A stretch of DNA of 64,000 nt from Futiania mangrovi (GTDB lineage: Bacteria; Pseudomonadota; Alphaproteobacteria; Futianiales; Futianiaceae). The notes beneath the pieces were generated by a model. It did not search any database and was not told the origin of the DNA. It saw nothing but the letters and a program-made list of their open reading frames with translations. Shown here one piece after another: positions 25,492 to 33,575 of this stretch. Position 1 is the first letter of the stretch. Each line of letters starts with the position of its first letter. The position numbers and the translations under genes were made by a program. Location of the stretch: assembly GCF_024158125.1 (NCBI RefSeq), contig NZ_JAMZFT010000002.1, positions 1,116,001-1,180,000 of the forward strand, given 5' to 3'.

Positions 25492-26241
25492 TTACTCCCG
25501 CGCGAACGGCAGGCACTCGCCGAGGACGAGACGCACGTCGCCCATGCCGCGCGCGACAGTGCGCCGCCGGTCGGCGAGCGACGGACTGTCCACGCGCCAT
25601 GCCTTCGGGTTCGGCAGGATCGAGGCGAGCGCTGCCGCCTGGCCCACGCCGAGGTCGCGTGCCGCGACGCCGAAGTGGTGCCGAGCGGCGGCGTCCGCGC
25701 CATAGATGCCGGGGCCCCATTCGGCGATATTGAGATAGACCTCCAGGATACGTTCCTTCGGCCACAGCACCTCGATCAGGACCGTGAACCAGACCTCCAG
25801 CCCCTTGCGCAGCCACGACCGCCCGTTCCACAGGAAGGCGTTCTTCGCGGTCTGCTGGCTGATCGTGCTGGCCCCGCGCAGGGCCGCGCCGTTCCGCCAC
25901 GCCTCTATGGCGCGGCCGATCTCCTCCAGGTCGAAGCCGGGATGCAGGCAGAAGCGCGCGTCCTCCGCCGCGATGGCGGCCCAGGCGATCCGGGGGCCGA
26001 GGGCGTCGAGGGGCAGGTTCGAACGCACGACCTCGCGCCCTGCGAGCCGGTCGGCCAGCATCGGGCTGGTGATGGGAGGGTCGACGGCGCGGTAGAGAGC
26101 GACCCAGGCGATGCTGAGCCCCGCGAGCACGACGAGCGTGGCAAGCGCCGCGCGCGCCCAGTCGCGCAGGCGCGCACGCAAAGGGCGGCGGACCGTGCGG
26201 CCGCCGCCCTTCGCCGGTGTCTTTGGCTTACTCCGCGGCAC
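25492..26241 (-). CDS. mtgA: Monofunctional biosynthetic peptidoglycan transglycosylase
   Basis: This GT51 enzyme polymerises lipid II into glycan strands at the inner membrane. The product has 249 residues. A basic N-terminus and one membrane helix (about 31-50) precede the catalytic domain with motif 1 AAEDARFCLHPGFD (catalytic Glu93), motif 2 RGASTISQQTAKN, and motif 3 RKGLEVWFTVLIEVLWPKERI with LNIAEWGPGIYG. No transpeptidase domain follows. Its ATG lies 14 bases inside the 3' end of gltB in the same direction, so translation is probably coupled to gltB. Confidence 0.95.
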   Translation of the reverse strand: MPRSKPKTPAKGGGRTVRRPLRARLRDWARAALATLVVLAGLSIAWVALYRAVDPPITSPMLADRLAGREVVRSNLPLDALGPRIAWAAIAAEDARFCLHPGFDLEEIGRAIEAWRNGAALRGASTISQQTAKNAFLWNGRSWLRKGLEVWFTVLIEVLWPKERILEVYLNIAEWGPGIYGADAAARHHFGVAARDLGVGQAAALASILPNPKAWRVDSPSLADRRRTVARGMGDVRLVLGECLPFARE

Positions 26242-29200
26242 CCGCCGCCGCGGTGTCCGACAGCGGATGGCTCAGCCGGTTCACCATCTCCTTCGGGCAG
26301 ACCTGGATGAAGCGCGGCAGTTCGAGGTCCCAATGCGCGAGGATCTCCCGGGCGAGCTGGGAGCCGGTCTCGCGCACATGGGTTTCGATCAGGCCGCGCA
26401 GCACGCCTTCCCAATGGCGCGATTGCACCGGCTGCCAGATCACGGAATCCGGGTTGATGCGCTCGTCGAACCCCTCGTCGGTCACGTGGACGAAGGCCAT
26501 GCCACCCGTCATGCCGGCGGCGAAATTGTCGCCGACCGAGCCGAGAATGACCGCCGTGCCGCCCGTCATGTATTCGCAGCCGTTGGCGCCGCAGCCCTCG
26601 ATCACCACTTCCGCGCCGGAGTTGCGGACCGCGAACCGCTCCCCCGCCTGGCCTGCGGCGAACAGCTGTCCCGCCGTTGCGCCGTAGAGCACGGTGTTGC
26701 CGATGATCGTGTTGTCCTTGGCCACGAGCGGGCTTTCGGTGACCGGGCGCACGACGATCATGCCGCCCGACAGGCCCTTGCCGACATAGTCGTTGGCGTC
26801 GCCCTTGACCTCGATCTTCACGCCCTGCACCGCGAAGGCGCCGAGCGACTGGCCCGCCGATCCGCGCAGCCGGATCGTCAGATGGCCCGGATTGAGGCCG
26901 CGCATCCCGAACTTCCGCGTGATGTGGGAGGAGGTGCGGGCGCCCACCGCGCGGTGCGTGTTCCGCACCGTGTAGGCAAGCTCCATCTTCTCCCCATGCT
27001 CGAACAGTGGGGCAGCGTCGCGGACGATCTGCGCGTCGAGCGTGTCGACCACCTCGTTGCGCTCGCCGGGCTTCAGCGTGCAATAGCGCGCATGCCCGCC
27101 CGGGTCCGCCTGCACCAGCAGCGGGTTGAGGTCGAGGTCGTCGAGATGCGCCGCGCCCCGGCTCACCTGCGCCAGCAGGTCGGTGCGCCCGATCGCCTCG
27201 TTGAGCGAACGCAGGCCGAGGCTCGCCAGGATCTCGCGCACCTCCTCGGCGATGAAGGTGAAAAGGTTGACGACCTTCTCCGGCGTGCCCACGAACTTCT
27301 TGCGCAGCGCGTCGTCCTGCGTGCAGACGCCGACCGGGCAGGTGTTGGAGTGGCACTGCCGCACCATGATGCAGCCCATGGCGACCAGCGAGGCGGTGCC
27401 CACGCCATATTCCTCCGCCCCCATCATGGCGGCGATGACGATGTCGCGGCCCGTCTTCAGGCCGCCGTCGGTGCGCAGCAGGACCCGGTGGCGCAGGTTG
27501 TTGAGGGTCAGCACCTGGTTCGCCTCGGTCAGGCCCAGTTCCCACGGGATGCCGGCGAACTTGATCGAGGTCTGCGGCGAGGCGCCCGTGCCACCGGAAT
27601 GGCCGGAGATCAGGATCACGTCCGCCTTCGCCTTGGCCACGCCCGCCGCGACCGTGCCGACGCCCGACTGCGCGACCAGCTTCACGGTCACGCGCGCCTT
27701 CGGGTTGATCTGCTTCAGGTCGTAGATGAGCTGCGCCAGGTCCTCGATCGAGTAGATGTCGTGGTGCGGCGGCGGCGAGATCAGCATCACGCCGGGCGTG
27801 GAATGCCGCAGGCGCGCGATCATCTCGGTCACCTTGAAGCCCGGAAGCTGGCCGCCCTCGCCCGGCTTGGCGCCCTGCGCGATCTTGATCTCCAGCTCGC
27901 GGCAATTGTTCAGGTATTCTGCCGTCACGCCAAAGCGGCCCGACGCCACCTGCTTGATCGCCGAGGAAGCGTTGTCGCCGTTGGGTTTCGGCTTGAAGTG
28001 CGCCGGATCCTCGCCGCCCTCACCCGAGTCGGACTTCGCACCGATGCGGTTCATGGCGATGGTCAGCGTCTCGTGCGCCTCCGGCGACAGCGCCCCCAGC
28101 GACATGCCCGGCGTGACGAACCGCTTGCGGATCTCGGTGATCGATTCGACCTCGTCGATCGGGACGGCCTTGCCTGCCGGCTTGAAGTCGAGGAGGTCGC
28201 GCAGCGCCACCGGCGGCTGCTTGTGGACCGCCTCGGAATACTTCTTGTAGGCGGAGTAGGATTCGTCCGTCACCGCCTGCTGCAGCAGATGGATGAGGTT
28301 GGCCTCCAGCGCGTGGCTCTCGCCGCCGCGGCGGTAGCGGTAGAAGCCCCCGATCGGCAGCGGAACGGCGTCCGTGCCATAGGCCTTCTCGTGGATCTCC
28401 ATGACCTTGTGCTGGATGCCGGCGAGGCCGATGCCCGAGATGCGCGAGGGCATACCGGGGAAGAATTCCGCCACCAGTGCGCGCGACAGGCCCACCGCCT
28501 CGAAATTGTAGCCGCCGCGATAGGACGAGATGACCGAGATGCCCATCTTGGACATGATCTTCAGCAGGCCCTGGTTCACCGCCTCGGTGAAGCGGGCGAC
28601 GCACTCCTCCAGCGACATGTCGCCGAAGAGGCCGCGCGCATGCCGGTCGGCGATGCACTCCTGCGCCAGATAGGCGTTCACCGTGGTCGCGCCGCAGCCG
28701 ATCAGCACCGCGAAATAGTGCGGGTCGAGGCATTCGCCCGAGCGCACGTTGAGGGAGCAGAAGGTGCGCAGTCCTTGCGCGACCAGGTGGCTGTGCACGC
28801 CGCCCGTGGCAAGGATCATCGGCACCGGCGCACGGTCGGCGCCGCTCTTCTCGTCGGTCAGCACGATGTGCTGGAAGCCGCGGCGCACCGCGTCCTCTGC
28901 ATCGGCGCGTATGGCGTCCAGCGCGTCCTTCAGCGCCTCGTCCCCGTCGGCGGGGGCGAAGGTGCAGTCGATCTCGTAGACGTGCTCGCCCATGATCTCG
29001 CGCATCTTGGCGAACATGCCGTTCGAGACGACGGGGCTTTCCAGCGTGAAGATCTCGACCTGCGCGGAGCTTTCGTCGAGCACGTTCTGCAGGTTGCCGA
29101 ACCGGGTCTTGAGGCTCATCACCCGGTGCTCGCGCAGGGGGTCGATGGCCGGGTTGGTGACCTGGCTGAAGTTCTGACGGAAGAAATGCGACAGCGGGCG

Positions 29201-30784
29201 GTAGGTCTTGGACAGCACCGCAGACGGCGTGTCGTCGCCCATGGAGCCGACCGCTTCCTTTGCGTCCTCCACCATCGGGTGCAGGATCAGTTCCATGTCC
29301 TCGAGCGTCAGCCCCGCGGCAACCTGGCGGCGGCGCAGGTCCTCCTTCCCGAACAGGCGCGGCTCGCGCACCGCCTCGATGTCGGAATCGAGCTCGCGGA
29401 CGTTCTGGATCCACTCCTCGTAGGGCTGCTCGGCGGCGAGCTTGTCCTTGATCGCGCGGTCCCGGTAGAGCTTCTTTTCCACTAGGTCGACGGCGATCAT
29501 GCGGCCCGGGCCGAGGCGGCCCTTCTCGATCACGCGGTTTTCCTCCAGCACCACCATGCCGGCTTCGGAACCGGCGACGATCAGCCCGTCGCGGGTCACG
29601 GCATAGCGCATGGGCCGCAGGCCGTTGCGGTCCATGCCGCCGATGACCCAGCGCCCGTCCGTCGCGGCGAGCGCTGCGGGGCCGTCCCACGGCTCCATGA
29701 CCGAGTTGGAATAGGCGTACATCGCCCGGTGCGCTTCCGGCATCACGGTCACGCGCTTCGACCAGGCTTCGGGCACCAGCAGCGTCTTGGCGAGCGGCGC
29801 GGTGCGGCCCGCGCGCACCAGCACCTCGAACACGGCGTCGAGCGCGGCGGAATCCGACGAGCCCGGCTGGATGATCGGCTTCACGTCCTCCGCATGGACG
29901 CCGAAGTTTTCCGACGCCATCGGGATCTCGTGGCTCTTCATCCAGTTCGAGTTGCCCTTCAGCGTGTTGATCTCGCCATTGTGGGCGAGCATGCGGAAGG
30001 GCTGGGCCAGGCGCCACTGCGGGAAGGTGTTGGTCGAGTAGCGCTGGTGGAAGATCGCGAAGCGCGATTCGAAGCGCTCGTCCCGCAGGTCGGGATAGAA
30101 CTCCGACAGGTGCTCGGCCAGGAACATGCCCTTGTAGATGATCGACCGGCACGACAGCGAGCAGATGTAGAAGTCGCGGATCGAGGCGGCCATCGCCGCT
30201 TTCTCCACGCGGCGGCGGATGAAGAACAGGTCGCGCTCGAACCGCTCCTCGTCGACACCCTTGGAGTTGGCGAGCAGGATCTGCTCGATCTCCGGGCGGG
30301 TGGCGTTCGCCTTCTCGCCGAGAACGTCGATGTTCACCGGCACCTGGCGCCAGCCATAGATGTAGTAGCCGAACTTCAGCACCTCCTGCTCGACGATCGT
30401 GCGGCAGACCTCCTGCGCGGCGAAATCGGTGCGCGGCAGGAAGACCTGGCCGACCGCGAGGCGGCCCTTCAGCGGCTCGTGCCCGGTGCGGGCGACGTGC
30501 TCCTTGAAGAACTCCTGCGAGATCTCGACGTGGATGCCCGCGCCGTCGCCGGTCTTGCCGTCGGCGTCGACCGCGCCGCGGTGCCACACGGCCTTCAGCG
30601 CGGCGATGCCCTTCTCCACGACCTCGCGGCGCGGCTTGCCGTCGATGGCGGCGACGAAGCCCACGCCGCAGGCATCGTGCTCGAACGCCGGATCGTAGAG
30701 GCCTTCGGCGGCCAGCCGCTCGCGCTCGCGCTCCATGCGCGCGATCTCTGCGAAGCCGGTGTCGATGATGGGGCGGTCGGTCAT
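26228..30784 (-). CDS. gltB: Glutamate synthase (NADPH) large subunit
   Basis: The large chain of GOGAT converts glutamine and 2-oxoglutarate to two glutamates. The 1518 residues begin MTDRPIIDTG. A propeptide of about 38 residues ends at DACGVGF, where Cys39 becomes the N-terminal nucleophile of the glutaminase domain. Central and FMN domains follow (HSGGTGASPQTSIK, PGEGGQLPGFKV), with a [3Fe-4S] motif CHSNTCPVGVC. The C-terminal beta-helix GXGXG domain is present (GKGLSGGMIVVRP, GATAGQLFAAGQAGERFAVR). It follows gltD by 56 bases. Confidence 0.98.
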   Translation of the reverse strand: MTDRPIIDTGFAEIARMERERERLAAEGLYDPAFEHDACGVGFVAAIDGKPRREVVEKGIAALKAVWHRGAVDADGKTGDGAGIHVEISQEFFKEHVARTGHEPLKGRLAVGQVFLPRTDFAAQEVCRTIVEQEVLKFGYYIYGWRQVPVNIDVLGEKANATRPEIEQILLANSKGVDEERFERDLFFIRRRVEKAAMAASIRDFYICSLSCRSIIYKGMFLAEHLSEFYPDLRDERFESRFAIFHQRYSTNTFPQWRLAQPFRMLAHNGEINTLKGNSNWMKSHEIPMASENFGVHAEDVKPIIQPGSSDSAALDAVFEVLVRAGRTAPLAKTLLVPEAWSKRVTVMPEAHRAMYAYSNSVMEPWDGPAALAATDGRWVIGGMDRNGLRPMRYAVTRDGLIVAGSEAGMVVLEENRVIEKGRLGPGRMIAVDLVEKKLYRDRAIKDKLAAEQPYEEWIQNVRELDSDIEAVREPRLFGKEDLRRRQVAAGLTLEDMELILHPMVEDAKEAVGSMGDDTPSAVLSKTYRPLSHFFRQNFSQVTNPAIDPLREHRVMSLKTRFGNLQNVLDESSAQVEIFTLESPVVSNGMFAKMREIMGEHVYEIDCTFAPADGDEALKDALDAIRADAEDAVRRGFQHIVLTDEKSGADRAPVPMILATGGVHSHLVAQGLRTFCSLNVRSGECLDPHYFAVLIGCGATTVNAYLAQECIADRHARGLFGDMSLEECVARFTEAVNQGLLKIMSKMGISVISSYRGGYNFEAVGLSRALVAEFFPGMPSRISGIGLAGIQHKVMEIHEKAYGTDAVPLPIGGFYRYRRGGESHALEANLIHLLQQAVTDESYSAYKKYSEAVHKQPPVALRDLLDFKPAGKAVPIDEVESITEIRKRFVTPGMSLGALSPEAHETLTIAMNRIGAKSDSGEGGEDPAHFKPKPNGDNASSAIKQVASGRFGVTAEYLNNCRELEIKIAQGAKPGEGGQLPGFKVTEMIARLRHSTPGVMLISPPPHHDIYSIEDLAQLIYDLKQINPKARVTVKLVAQSGVGTVAAGVAKAKADVILISGHSGGTGASPQTSIKFAGIPWELGLTEANQVLTLNNLRHRVLLRTDGGLKTGRDIVIAAMMGAEEYGVGTASLVAMGCIMVRQCHSNTCPVGVCTQDDALRKKFVGTPEKVVNLFTFIAEEVREILASLGLRSLNEAIGRTDLLAQVSRGAAHLDDLDLNPLLVQADPGGHARYCTLKPGERNEVVDTLDAQIVRDAAPLFEHGEKMELAYTVRNTHRAVGARTSSHITRKFGMRGLNPGHLTIRLRGSAGQSLGAFAVQGVKIEVKGDANDYVGKGLSGGMIVVRPVTESPLVAKDNTIIGNTVLYGATAGQLFAAGQAGERFAVRNSGAEVVIEGCGANGCEYMTGGTAVILGSVGDNFAAGMTGGMAFVHVTDEGFDERINPDSVIWQPVQSRHWEGVLRGLIETHVRETGSQLAREILAHWDLELPRFIQVCPKEMVNRLSHPLSDTAAAGAAE

Positions 30785-30840
30785 GGGCGCATCCCTCGTT
30801 CTTCTGTGTCCTTGATGGCGTGCAGGTCGCGTCGGGCCGG

Positions 30841-32301
30841 TCAGGCCGCGCGCACGCCGGCCGTCTCTCCGGCGGCCTTGGTCTTGTTCTGGATATAGGC
30901 GTGCATGGCTTCCGCAGCGTCGCGGCCGTCGCGGATCGCCCACACGACGAGCGAGGCCCCGCGCACGATGTCGCCCGCGGCGAACACGCCCTCCATCTCG
31001 GTCATCTGGGTGTGGAAGTCGACCTTGACCGTGCCCCAGCGCGTCACCGGAAGCTCTGGCGCGCCGAACAGGGTCGGCAGGTCCTCCGGATCGAAGCCCA
31101 GCGCCTTCAGCACGAGGTCGGCCTCGACCGTGAACTCGCTGCCCGCCACTTCCTCCGGCCGGCGGCGGCCCGTGGCGTCCGGCAGGCCGAGGCGCATCCG
31201 CACCGCGCGCACGCCCATCACCTGGTTGTCGTCGTCGGCGAGGAAGCCCTTGGGCGCGGCCAGCCACTCGAAATGCACGCCTTCCTCCTCGGCGTTCGCC
31301 ACCTCGCGCTGCGAGCCCGGCATGTTCTCCCGGTCGCGGCGGTAAAGGCAGGTGACCGAGGTCGCGCCCTGGCGCACGGCGGTGCGCACGCAGTCCATGG
31401 CCGTGTCGCCGCCGCCGATGACGACGACCTTCTTGCCCTCCGCCGAGAGGCGCCCGTTGCGGAAGTCCGGCACCTCGTCGCCGAGGCCCACCCGGTTCGA
31501 GGCCGTCAGGAACTCCATCGCCGGCAGGATGCCGTCGGCGCCGGAGCCCGGGCCGTCGATGTCGCGCGCCTTGTAGACGCCGGTCGCGATCAGCACCGCG
31601 TCGTGCTTCTCCCGCAGGTCGGCGAGCGTCGCGTCGCGTCCGACCTCGAAGTTCATGCGATACTCGATCCCGCTGTCGGCGAGGCGCTTGGTGCGCCGTT
31701 CCACGACCTCCTTCTCAAGCTTGAAGCCGGGGATGCCGTAGATCAGCAGGCCGCCCGCGCGGTCGTACCGGTCGTAGACGGTGACCTTGTAGCCCTTGCG
31801 CCGCATCTCCTCCGCCGCGGCGAGACCCGCGGGGCCGGCGCCGACGATGCCGATGGACTGCTCAAGCTCGCGCGGCGGGGTAAAGGGCTGGATCCAGCCT
31901 TCCTCCCACGCGGTGTCGTTGATGTATTTCTCGACCGCGCCGATGGTGACCGTGCCGTGACCCGACTGCTCGATCACGCAATTGCCCTCGCACAGCCGGT
32001 CCTGCGGGCAGATGCGGCCGCAGATCTCCGGCATGTTGTTGGTCGCGCTCGACACCTCCCATGCCTCCTGCAGGCGGCCTTCCGCCGTCAGCTTCAGCCA
32101 GTCGGGGATGTTGTTGTGCAAGGGGCAGTGGACCTGGCAGAAGGGCACGCCGCACTGCGAGCAGCGCGAGGCCTGCTCGGCCGCCTTGGCCTCCGCAAAC
32201 TCCGCATAGATCTCGTCGAAGTCGCGCTTGCGCGTGTCGGCGCCGCGCTTCTCGGGCATCTGGCGCCCGACCTTCACGAATTGCAGCATGCGTTGAGCCA
32301 T
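30841..32301 (-). CDS. gltD: Glutamate synthase (NADPH) small subunit
   Basis: The small chain passes electrons from NADPH through FAD and Fe-S clusters to GltB. The product has 486 residues. Two N-terminal cysteine clusters, CSQCGVPFCQVHCPLHNNIP and CGRICPQDRLCEGNCV, bind [4Fe-4S]. The FAD site is IGIVGAGPAGLAAAEE and the NADPH site VVIGGGDTAMDCVRTA. The C-terminal FAD segment is GVFAAGDIVRGASLVVWA. It is the first gene of gltD-gltB-mtgA. Upstream is the 476-base repeat-containing region. Confidence 0.98.
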   Translation of the reverse strand: MAQRMLQFVKVGRQMPEKRGADTRKRDFDEIYAEFAEAKAAEQASRCSQCGVPFCQVHCPLHNNIPDWLKLTAEGRLQEAWEVSSATNNMPEICGRICPQDRLCEGNCVIEQSGHGTVTIGAVEKYINDTAWEEGWIQPFTPPRELEQSIGIVGAGPAGLAAAEEMRRKGYKVTVYDRYDRAGGLLIYGIPGFKLEKEVVERRTKRLADSGIEYRMNFEVGRDATLADLREKHDAVLIATGVYKARDIDGPGSGADGILPAMEFLTASNRVGLGDEVPDFRNGRLSAEGKKVVVIGGGDTAMDCVRTAVRQGATSVTCLYRRDRENMPGSQREVANAEEEGVHFEWLAAPKGFLADDDNQVMGVRAVRMRLGLPDATGRRRPEEVAGSEFTVEADLVLKALGFDPEDLPTLFGAPELPVTRWGTVKVDFHTQMTEMEGVFAAGDIVRGASLVVWAIRDGRDAAEAMHAYIQNKTKAAGETAGVRAA

Positions 32302-32777
32302 TTTCGCGTCCCTTTGTGTTCTTCAAGCGCAGGCGTGATGAAGCGCAGCGTGATCTCTGGCATGGCACCGGGGCGGCCGCAGGGCCGATCTTCGTGCCGG
32401 CCTCCCTCCGTTACGGCGTCGTGCATGCGTGCCGGTCATCGGGGGTCCGGCCACCCTGTTCCGGCGTCCGGGCCGCCGGCTTCCGGGCGCGCTCGGCCCT
32501 CTACATAGCGCCATGCCGGCACGCGGCCAAGCGATTTTTCCAATTTAGGCATCAATACGAGACTAAATTGGCGCCCATTGCCCCGAAATCCACCGTTGGG
32601 TCGAAGGGTGCCCGGCATGTGCCGCGCGTTTCTGTCATATTGGTTCCGATATGAGACTAATTGAGGTGGCGGCTGTGGCGGGCTGGGCCTGGTCAGCAAT
32701 TGTTATCCCAGGCCTGCTAGGATACCCCTCGCTGGCCCCGGAGTTGCCGGCGCGTTGCTAGGGAGATCCGCAAGGAC
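32302..32777. other. Intergenic region between divergent gltD and uppP
   Basis: There is no convincing gene in these 476 bases. Most of the gltD-proximal half is ordinary G+C-rich sequence. The part from about 32530 to 32665 is AT-rich and carries the repeats described separately. It must contain the promoters for both gltD and uppP; I cannot place them with confidence. Confidence 0.6.
32540..32664. promoter_or_regulatory. Inverted and direct repeats, candidate operators
   Basis: CCAATTTAG (32540-32548) and CTAAATTGG (32563-32571) form a perfect nine-base inverted repeat with a 14-base spacer. ATACGAGACTAAATTG (32555-32570) recurs as ATATGAGACTAATTG (32650-32664), 95 bases away. The second copy is itself preceded by an inverted pair TCATAT (32635-32640) and ATATGA (32650-32655). 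Such spaced, AT-rich symmetry fits binding by a regulator of gltDB and/or uppP. The protein is unknown. Confidence 0.45.
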
Positions 32778-33575
32778 ATGGAGTTCATCCAGCTTGCCGT
32801 GCTGGCCGTCGTGCAGGGCATCACCGAGTTTCTGCCGATCAGTTCCTCGGCCCACCTGATTCTCGTGCCGGTTCTCTTCGGCTGGAAGGACCAGGGGCTC
32901 CTGATCGACGTCGCGCTGCACGTGGGCACGCTGGCTGCCGTAATGGTCTATTTCCGCAAGGAAACGGCCATGCTGATCCGTGGCGGCTTCGATGTCGTCC
33001 TGTTCCGGCGGACGGATGCCGCGCGGCTCGCCCTGATGGTGGTGGCCGCGACGGTGCCCGTGATGGTGGCGGGCCTGCTGTTCAAGGACATGATCGGCAG
33101 CGACTTCCGCGCGCCCCTGCTGATCGCGGCGACGACCATCCTGTTCGGGGTGGCGCTGTGGGTGGCCGACCGCAAGGCCGACCGGGCGGAGCGGCTGTTC
33201 GCCGGCATCACCTGGCGGGACGCGATCCTCGTGGGGCTGGCCCAGGCGCTGGCGCTCATTCCCGGCGTCAGCCGGTCGGGCATCACGATGACGGCGGCGC
33301 TGCTGCTCGGCTATTCGCGGCCCGAGGCGGCGCGTTTCGCGCTCGTCCTGGCGATACCGACGACATTCGCGGCGGGTGCGCTTGCAACCCTCGACCTTGT
33401 CCAGTCCGGCGACGCCACGCTGCAGCTCGACGCGGTGATCGCGGCCGCACTCGCCTTCGTCAGCGCGCTGGCGGCGATCTGGGCGATGATGCTCTGGCTG
33501 CGCCAGGCGACCTTCACGCCGTTCGTGATCTACCGCCTCGCGCTTGGCGTCATGCTTCTGTGGGTGTTCCTGTAG
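32778..33575 (+). CDS. uppP: Undecaprenyl-diphosphatase
   Basis: This integral membrane enzyme dephosphorylates undecaprenyl pyrophosphate to recycle the lipid carrier for peptidoglycan and O-antigen. The product has 265 residues and about eight hydrophobic helices. The BacA/UppP motifs are complete: QGITEFLPISSSAHLIL near the N-terminus and ALIPGVSRSGITMTAALLLG in the middle. An AAGGA sequence precedes the ATG. Its last 26 bases overlap the 3' end of the convergent NDUFA9-like gene. Confidence 0.97.
   Translation: MEFIQLAVLAVVQGITEFLPISSSAHLILVPVLFGWKDQGLLIDVALHVGTLAAVMVYFRKETAMLIRGGFDVVLFRRTDAARLALMVVAATVPVMVAGLLFKDMIGSDFRAPLLIAATTILFGVALWVADRKADRAERLFAGITWRDAILVGLAQALALIPGVSRSGITMTAALLLGYSRPEAARFALVLAIPTTFAAGALATLDLVQSGDATLQLDAVIAAALAFVSALAAIWAMMLWLRQATFTPFVIYRLALGVMLLWVFL

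Follow-up and report, generated by a model that had tools for sequence, protein, structure and literature searches.

Several sites lie upstream of the promoter of the Escherichia coli gltBDF operon, and in the paired operators of gal, lac, and ara two sites of one protein are a whole number of helical turns apart. Between the TAG and CTA ends of the E. coli Lrp consensus, the gap is shorter than in the sites described here. Like gal, lac, and ara, the locus analyzed here has two predicted sites about a whole number of turns apart; unlike those systems, its half-site gap varies, with 7 bp in sites of type A, 5 bp in sites of type B, and 6 bp in one site of the window. The E. coli gltBDF control region is governed by Lrp together with IHF, Crp, and ArgR (PMC1784095), and the present locus is similar in that glutamate synthase appears to be controlled from upstream sites. 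The published box of the LsrB/VtlR promoters of rhizobia, Agrobacterium, and Brucella is GCAT-N3-TG-N3-T or TGCA-N6-GCAT (PMC7486931, PMC10746234). NtrX sites resemble the present ones in having short inverted half-sites with a variable gap, but the NtrX forms in the published excerpts are CAA-N2-5-TTG or GCA-N9-TGC, and the Rhodobacter sphaeroides NtrX peaks named there belong to genes other than gltBD.

The stretch described here, between gltD and uppP, is probably a conserved, helically phased two-site operator of the gltD-gltB operon, bound by two dimers of one putative protein. A literature search, with most subscription papers outside its reach, found no paper describing this operator. 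The window (the whole 64,000-nucleotide stretch analyzed) carries gltD, coding for the 486-aa glutamate synthase small subunit with Fer4_20 and Pyr_redox_2 domains, at 30841..32301 on the minus strand, and gltB, coding for the large subunit with GATase_2, Glu_syn_central, Glu_synthase, and GXGXG domains, on the same strand within an open frame at 26228..31267, inside which its true start lies. The divergent neighbor of gltD is uppP/bacA (BacA, PF02673) at 32778..33575 on the plus strand, and the gap between the gltD start (32301, minus strand) and the uppP start (32778, plus strand) is 476 bp. The segment from 32530 to 32670, which a preliminary description had called an AT-rich island, is AT-rich only relative to its surroundings, with 51% GC against a 64-kb mean of 69.6% in 141-bp windows; GC content this low is seen in 2 of 6386 such windows (step of 10, with windows overlapping the island counted). 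A 1124-codon open frame antisense to gltB (26111-29485, plus strand) probably results from GC-rich codon usage. An Rfam search of 31800-33400 returned three matches, all under their gathering scores, and an RNA element was rejected because no family reached its gathering score in that region.

The segment contains a perfect 9-bp inverted repeat, CCAATTTAG/CTAAATTGG, at 32540-32548 and 32563-32571 with 14 bp between the arms, just where it had been reported. The direct repeat, described earlier as 15 bases long with copies 95 bases apart, is also present, as ATACGAGACTAA/ATATGAGACTAA at 32555-32566 and 32649-32660, but it is 12 bases long (11/12 identical) with 94 bp from start to start, and reaches 15 bases only with one gapped base. 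A third element, the small inverted pair TCATATTGG/CCGATATGA at 32635-32643 and 32646-32654 (89% complementary), exists as well but only overlaps the flank of the second palindrome (the left part of site B', below), and this pair, spanning 32635..32654 with no strand assigned, is probably incidental. Taken alone, the repeats are only modestly above chance. Dinucleotide shuffling of the 476-bp gap produces a perfect inverted repeat of 9 bp (spacer of at most 20 bp) in 63 of 1000 trials and a direct repeat of 12 bases, one mismatch allowed, in 60 of 200; in shuffles of the 141-bp island, the corresponding counts are 18/2000 and 13/1000. The case for an operator comes from conservation in relatives rather than from the rarity of the repeats alone. 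The pattern ATAYGAGACTAAWTKR, made from both copies of the direct repeat, has no third match with zero or one mismatch in the 3.39-Mb genome, and a repeated genomic element was rejected because the repeat word has just these two matches genome-wide.

The units of the operator are two palindromes of ∼20 bp, centered in the window at 32555.5 and 32650. Upstream of gltD they occur in two imperfect types, type A (TAGGTCA-N7-TGACCTA) and type B (TAGKNCC-N5-GGNMCTA). Site A', the gltD-proximal palindrome CCAATTTAGGCATCAATACGAGACTAAATTGG at 32540..32571 (no strand assigned), has perfect 9-bp arms and the half-site gap of 6 bp, and site B', TGGTTCCGATATGAGACTA at 32641..32659 (likewise unstranded), is of type B with a gap of 5 bp; the two centers are 94.5 bp apart.

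Since the window genome is the sole member of its order among the genomes searched, footprinting was done across the class. A GltD query yielded 30 loci from whole genomes plus the best 80 of a longer list from named genome records. Divergent gltD and uppP are common neighbors, and 82 gaps were cut out, of which four are copies of the window; dropping the window copies L031, L032, and L114 and the identical L083 left 78, comprising 41 from SAR11, 34 non-SAR11 gaps of ≤520 bp (window included), and three longer than 520 bp (L013, L016, and L057) that were left out of further analysis. L085, L108, and L011, in which uppP is on the same strand, were placed in the set without a divergent uppP. The footprinting that the preliminary description had proposed came out in favor of the operator, with two sites of the same kind recurring in most non-SAR11 gaps, whereas SAR11 gaps have one clear palindrome and keep A without a B at in-phase spacing. 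No convincing in-phase pair is present in L072, L094, L035, and L086.

Two matrices served for cross-testing, with a pass defined as a best match scoring above 98 or more of 100 dinucleotide shuffles. The A matrix scores half-sites only and was built from the 41 SAR11 gaps alone, with sites chosen by best match to the A consensus; the B matrix was built from ten genomes without a divergent uppP, with training sites chosen using weights set by eye, in genomes outside the test set. Of the 34 non-SAR11 gaps, 28 pass with the SAR11-trained A matrix, as do 12 of the 13 regions upstream of gltD that lack a divergent uppP; the B matrix passes in 21 of the 34 gaps, including the window. Site B' scores 19.0 bits, a score reached in 0/100 shuffles with this matrix from ten other genomes, and A' is the top A-matrix match in the window gap, yet weak (17/100 shuffles are as good). 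Two sites of the same kind are thus conserved in relatives near the predicted promoter (see below), with B' strong and A' weak in the window. A-type and B-type sites exchange places between genomes, and there are A+A pairs (L063, L102, L109, L090, L034, L014, and L064) and B+B pairs (L100 and L051); the occurrence of both types at both places points to one protein that would tolerate different half-site gaps.

The distance between the two sites is confined to a few values. Where both matrices pass, the centers are 73 to 75 or 84 to 85 bp apart in 17/17 gaps, with distance outside the scoring. An unguided search over 50 to 130 bp, covering the 34 gaps and 11 upstream regions (L015 and L017 were left out, though kept in the matrix test), placed 37 of 44 best pairs, window excluded, at 73 to 76, 84 to 86, or 94 to 96 bp; 12% would be expected in these three ranges if evenly spread, and the kinship of the genomes reduces the independence of the 37/44. 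The half-site weights for this search, for assigning A and B types to the sites, for reading the pairs in regions without a divergent uppP, and for the oxidoreductase and dehydrogenase scans below had been chosen by eye from these gaps. Seven of the 44 unguided pairs are out of phase (L086, L056, L106, L072, L094, L035, and L088), and the Thalassobaculum palindromes have centers 96 bp apart. The spacing of the pair is helically phased, though the best common period is 9.7 to 10.0 bp (R of 0.77 to 0.81) rather than 10.5 bp, which fits nearly as well (R of 0.70 to 0.76). A GltD tree of 39 loci, with good support for just 12 of its 36 inner branches, requires six changes among the three spacing classes, so the spacing has shifted several times, by about one turn each time; this set omits L086, L072, L094, L035, L011, L088, L015, and L017, and assigns 84 bp to L056 and L106, in both of which the matrix test places the sites 84 bp apart. 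Of the two-site, possibly looping operator suggested earlier, the conserved pair and its steps of about one turn are borne out, and it is from this spacing that we infer possible looping between A and B.

The pair stays with gltD where uppP is not its divergent neighbor. Nine regions upstream of gltD that have no divergent uppP carry it, with centers 74 to 75 bp (L085, 74; L108, 75) or 84 to 85 bp apart (L005, L077, L074, and L095, 84; L079, L107, and L012, 85), which argues that the operator serves gltBD. The L012 pair (gap coordinates 438 and 523) is far upstream and in reversed order relative to gltD. The preliminary description had left the choice between glutamate synthase and uppP open; judging by these arrangements, glutamate synthase is most likely the target, and an effect on uppP is possible but would be secondary.

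In the window, a predicted gltD promoter consists of a −35 hexamer, TTGGCC (32525..32530, minus strand), read from the sequence 17 bp from a −10-like hexamer, TATGTA (32502..32507, minus strand), which is 48 bp from the center of A' and predicts a start at ∼32495; a standard promoter scan returned nothing for 32250-32850. Among 30 gaps with uppP (window included; L086, L072, L094, and L035 omitted), −10-like hexamers peak 49 bp from the A center on the gltD side (z of 3.3), and the peak is repeated at 49 bp in nine regions without a divergent uppP (z of 3.4). This would put A near −61, a usual position for an activator. In SAR11, the peak is weaker and at 41 bp from A, and in several Rhodobacteraceae a similar hexamer, identified by eye, lies about 30 bp away and would place A at around −42. 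On the other side, a −10-like hexamer upstream of uppP, TAGGAT (32718..32723, plus strand), is 68 bp from B'.

Each of the two sites faces a promoter of its own in the gaps with uppP, and −10-like hexamers lie ∼40 to 43 bp from B in many genomes, as would be expected if A and B were two independent single-site switches, for gltD and uppP, respectively, that bind the same protein without contact. We consider this unlikely, because a pair of the same spacing is retained where uppP is not the divergent neighbor, the A-B distance changes by about one turn at a time, and relatives differ in how far B lies from the uppP −10 (40 to 43, 52 to 58, or 65 to 68 bp).

We read the window as a nine-turn copy of the two-site operator, with a strong B' and a weaker A'. 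It is very unlikely that its repeats are chance or decayed sequence, with the operator real in relatives but A' no longer working, although the repeats are not rare in gap shuffles, A' is weak, and the unguided best pair in the window gap is 105 bp apart and not significant (27/100 shuffles). Against such decay, no shuffle matches B' under an independent matrix, A' is the best A match in the gap and lies at the distances from B' and from the −10-like hexamer given above, and the same genome has a clear A site elsewhere, upstream of an indolepyruvate ferredoxin oxidoreductase (IOR) gene. Under the two-site reading, a dimeric DNA-binding protein would occupy palindrome A', centered near −61 from the predicted gltD start, and a second dimer of the same protein would occupy B', approximately nine helical turns further upstream. 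The two dimers would face approximately the same side of the helix and probably be in contact, forming a small loop or a cooperative complex that may set gltBD transcription by nitrogen or glutamate state, and the divergent uppP promoter beyond B' would perhaps be affected as a bystander.

The A-type site at IOR in this genome, AATGTCAATAGTGCTGACCTA at C1:17867-17887 (L148, 1501-1521; L255), is reached by 0/100 shuffles and is ∼147 bp upstream of an IOR family gene, adjoining a TRAP transporter DctM gene. The IOR name derives from NCBIfam subfamily models, with matches under their cutoffs since only the first 454 residues were used. A search of 32 genomes gave 30 IOR loci, of which one is cut by a contig end and 29 were scanned; 14 of the 29 upstream regions, including that of this genome, have a site reached by ≤2/100 mononucleotide shuffles. 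The perfect A pattern is rare, with 10 sites in 9 of 241 genomes of the class (reversed control, 0), of which three are before gltD, four before IOR, and three elsewhere; the window genome is not among the nine. When one mismatch is allowed, 45 genomes have 79 places against 58 for the control, so most mismatch-tolerant A places are chance, and the only such place in this genome is the IOR site. The B pattern with at most two mismatches in 18 genomes has 8 places against ∼9 for the reversed control, and six of the eight are before gltD.

Other candidate targets were less consistent. NAD-glutamate dehydrogenase was rejected as a general target, with a top site reached by ≤3/60 mononucleotide shuffles in 3 of 21 regions (L243, L247, and L252), of which L243 alone among the 21 resembles an A site close to the gene. 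Single A-type sites were observed before NAD-glutamate dehydrogenase (L197/L243) and before a class I/II aminotransferase (L187); the aminotransferase and other LysR genes (L188 and L189) were set aside as isolated cases. SAR11 gaps have a second palindrome near site A, TGCATA-N5-TATGCA (for example, L044, L050, and L076), 54 to 55 bp from A in 9/41, 60 to 62 bp in 29/41, and with no sensible match in 3/41. It was rejected as a B site because its distance steps are not one turn, and it is probably the site of another factor. Forms of this palindrome with a central CTG fit the LsrB/VtlR box GCAT-N3-TG-N3-T; SAR11 carries just one LysR of this kind.

As to the protein that binds the pair, an Lrp/AsnC regulator was rejected: unlike the situation at E. 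coli gltBDF, the AsnC/Lrp family domain (PF01037) is absent from 6/6 SAR11 genomes that keep site A in their gltD-uppP gaps, all of them incomplete (0.8 to 1.2 Mb), but is present in 10/10 others. An LsrB/VtlR-type LysR is a highly improbable candidate, even though the T-N11-A spacing of its promoters fits many A sites, this genome carries such a gene, it is the sole LysR found in five of the six SAR11 genomes (the sixth gave none), and in Rhodobacteraceae the IOR-side A site is between IOR and the adjoining LysR gene (five Rhodobacteraceae-like loci plus L190, L192, and L294). Set against these similarities, the A and B sites differ from the published box (PMC7486931, PMC10746234), and the ortholog does not accompany the pair wherever it is kept. 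It was not found in seven genomes counted with the pair, several of them incomplete (L068, L101, L111, L085, L108, L051, and L034), of which L101, L085, and L108 have strong pairs (0/100 shuffles) and the rest weaker ones, and no A or B site is near the LysR orthologs in orders outside Rhodobacteraceae.

GltBD and IOR are iron-sulfur enzymes, which is compatible with IscR as the regulator. So is the naming of GltB among the genes upregulated in a Caulobacter iscR mutant (PMC11475020). The Caulobacter IscR motifs published there nevertheless differ from both site types, and for the Rhodobacter Iron-Rhodo-box the published description is a palindrome of 19 bp resembling the RirA box (PMC4618611). 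We give IscR a very slim chance of being the protein.

Tentatively, and with somewhat less than even confidence, we suggest that an activator predating the SAR11 split controls both gltBD and IOR, with two dimers bridging seven to nine turns of DNA. One of the main routes by which nitrogen enters metabolism runs through glutamate synthase, and site A is retained in SAR11, one of the most abundant groups of marine bacteria. If the suggestion is correct, this protein would fill the place of a missing regulator of nitrogen or redox state in the class, distinct from NtrBC, Lrp, LsrB, and NtrYX. The defined probe pair would make the search for it a direct experiment, and the series of spacings differing by about one turn would offer natural variants with which to test whether two operator sites are in contact.
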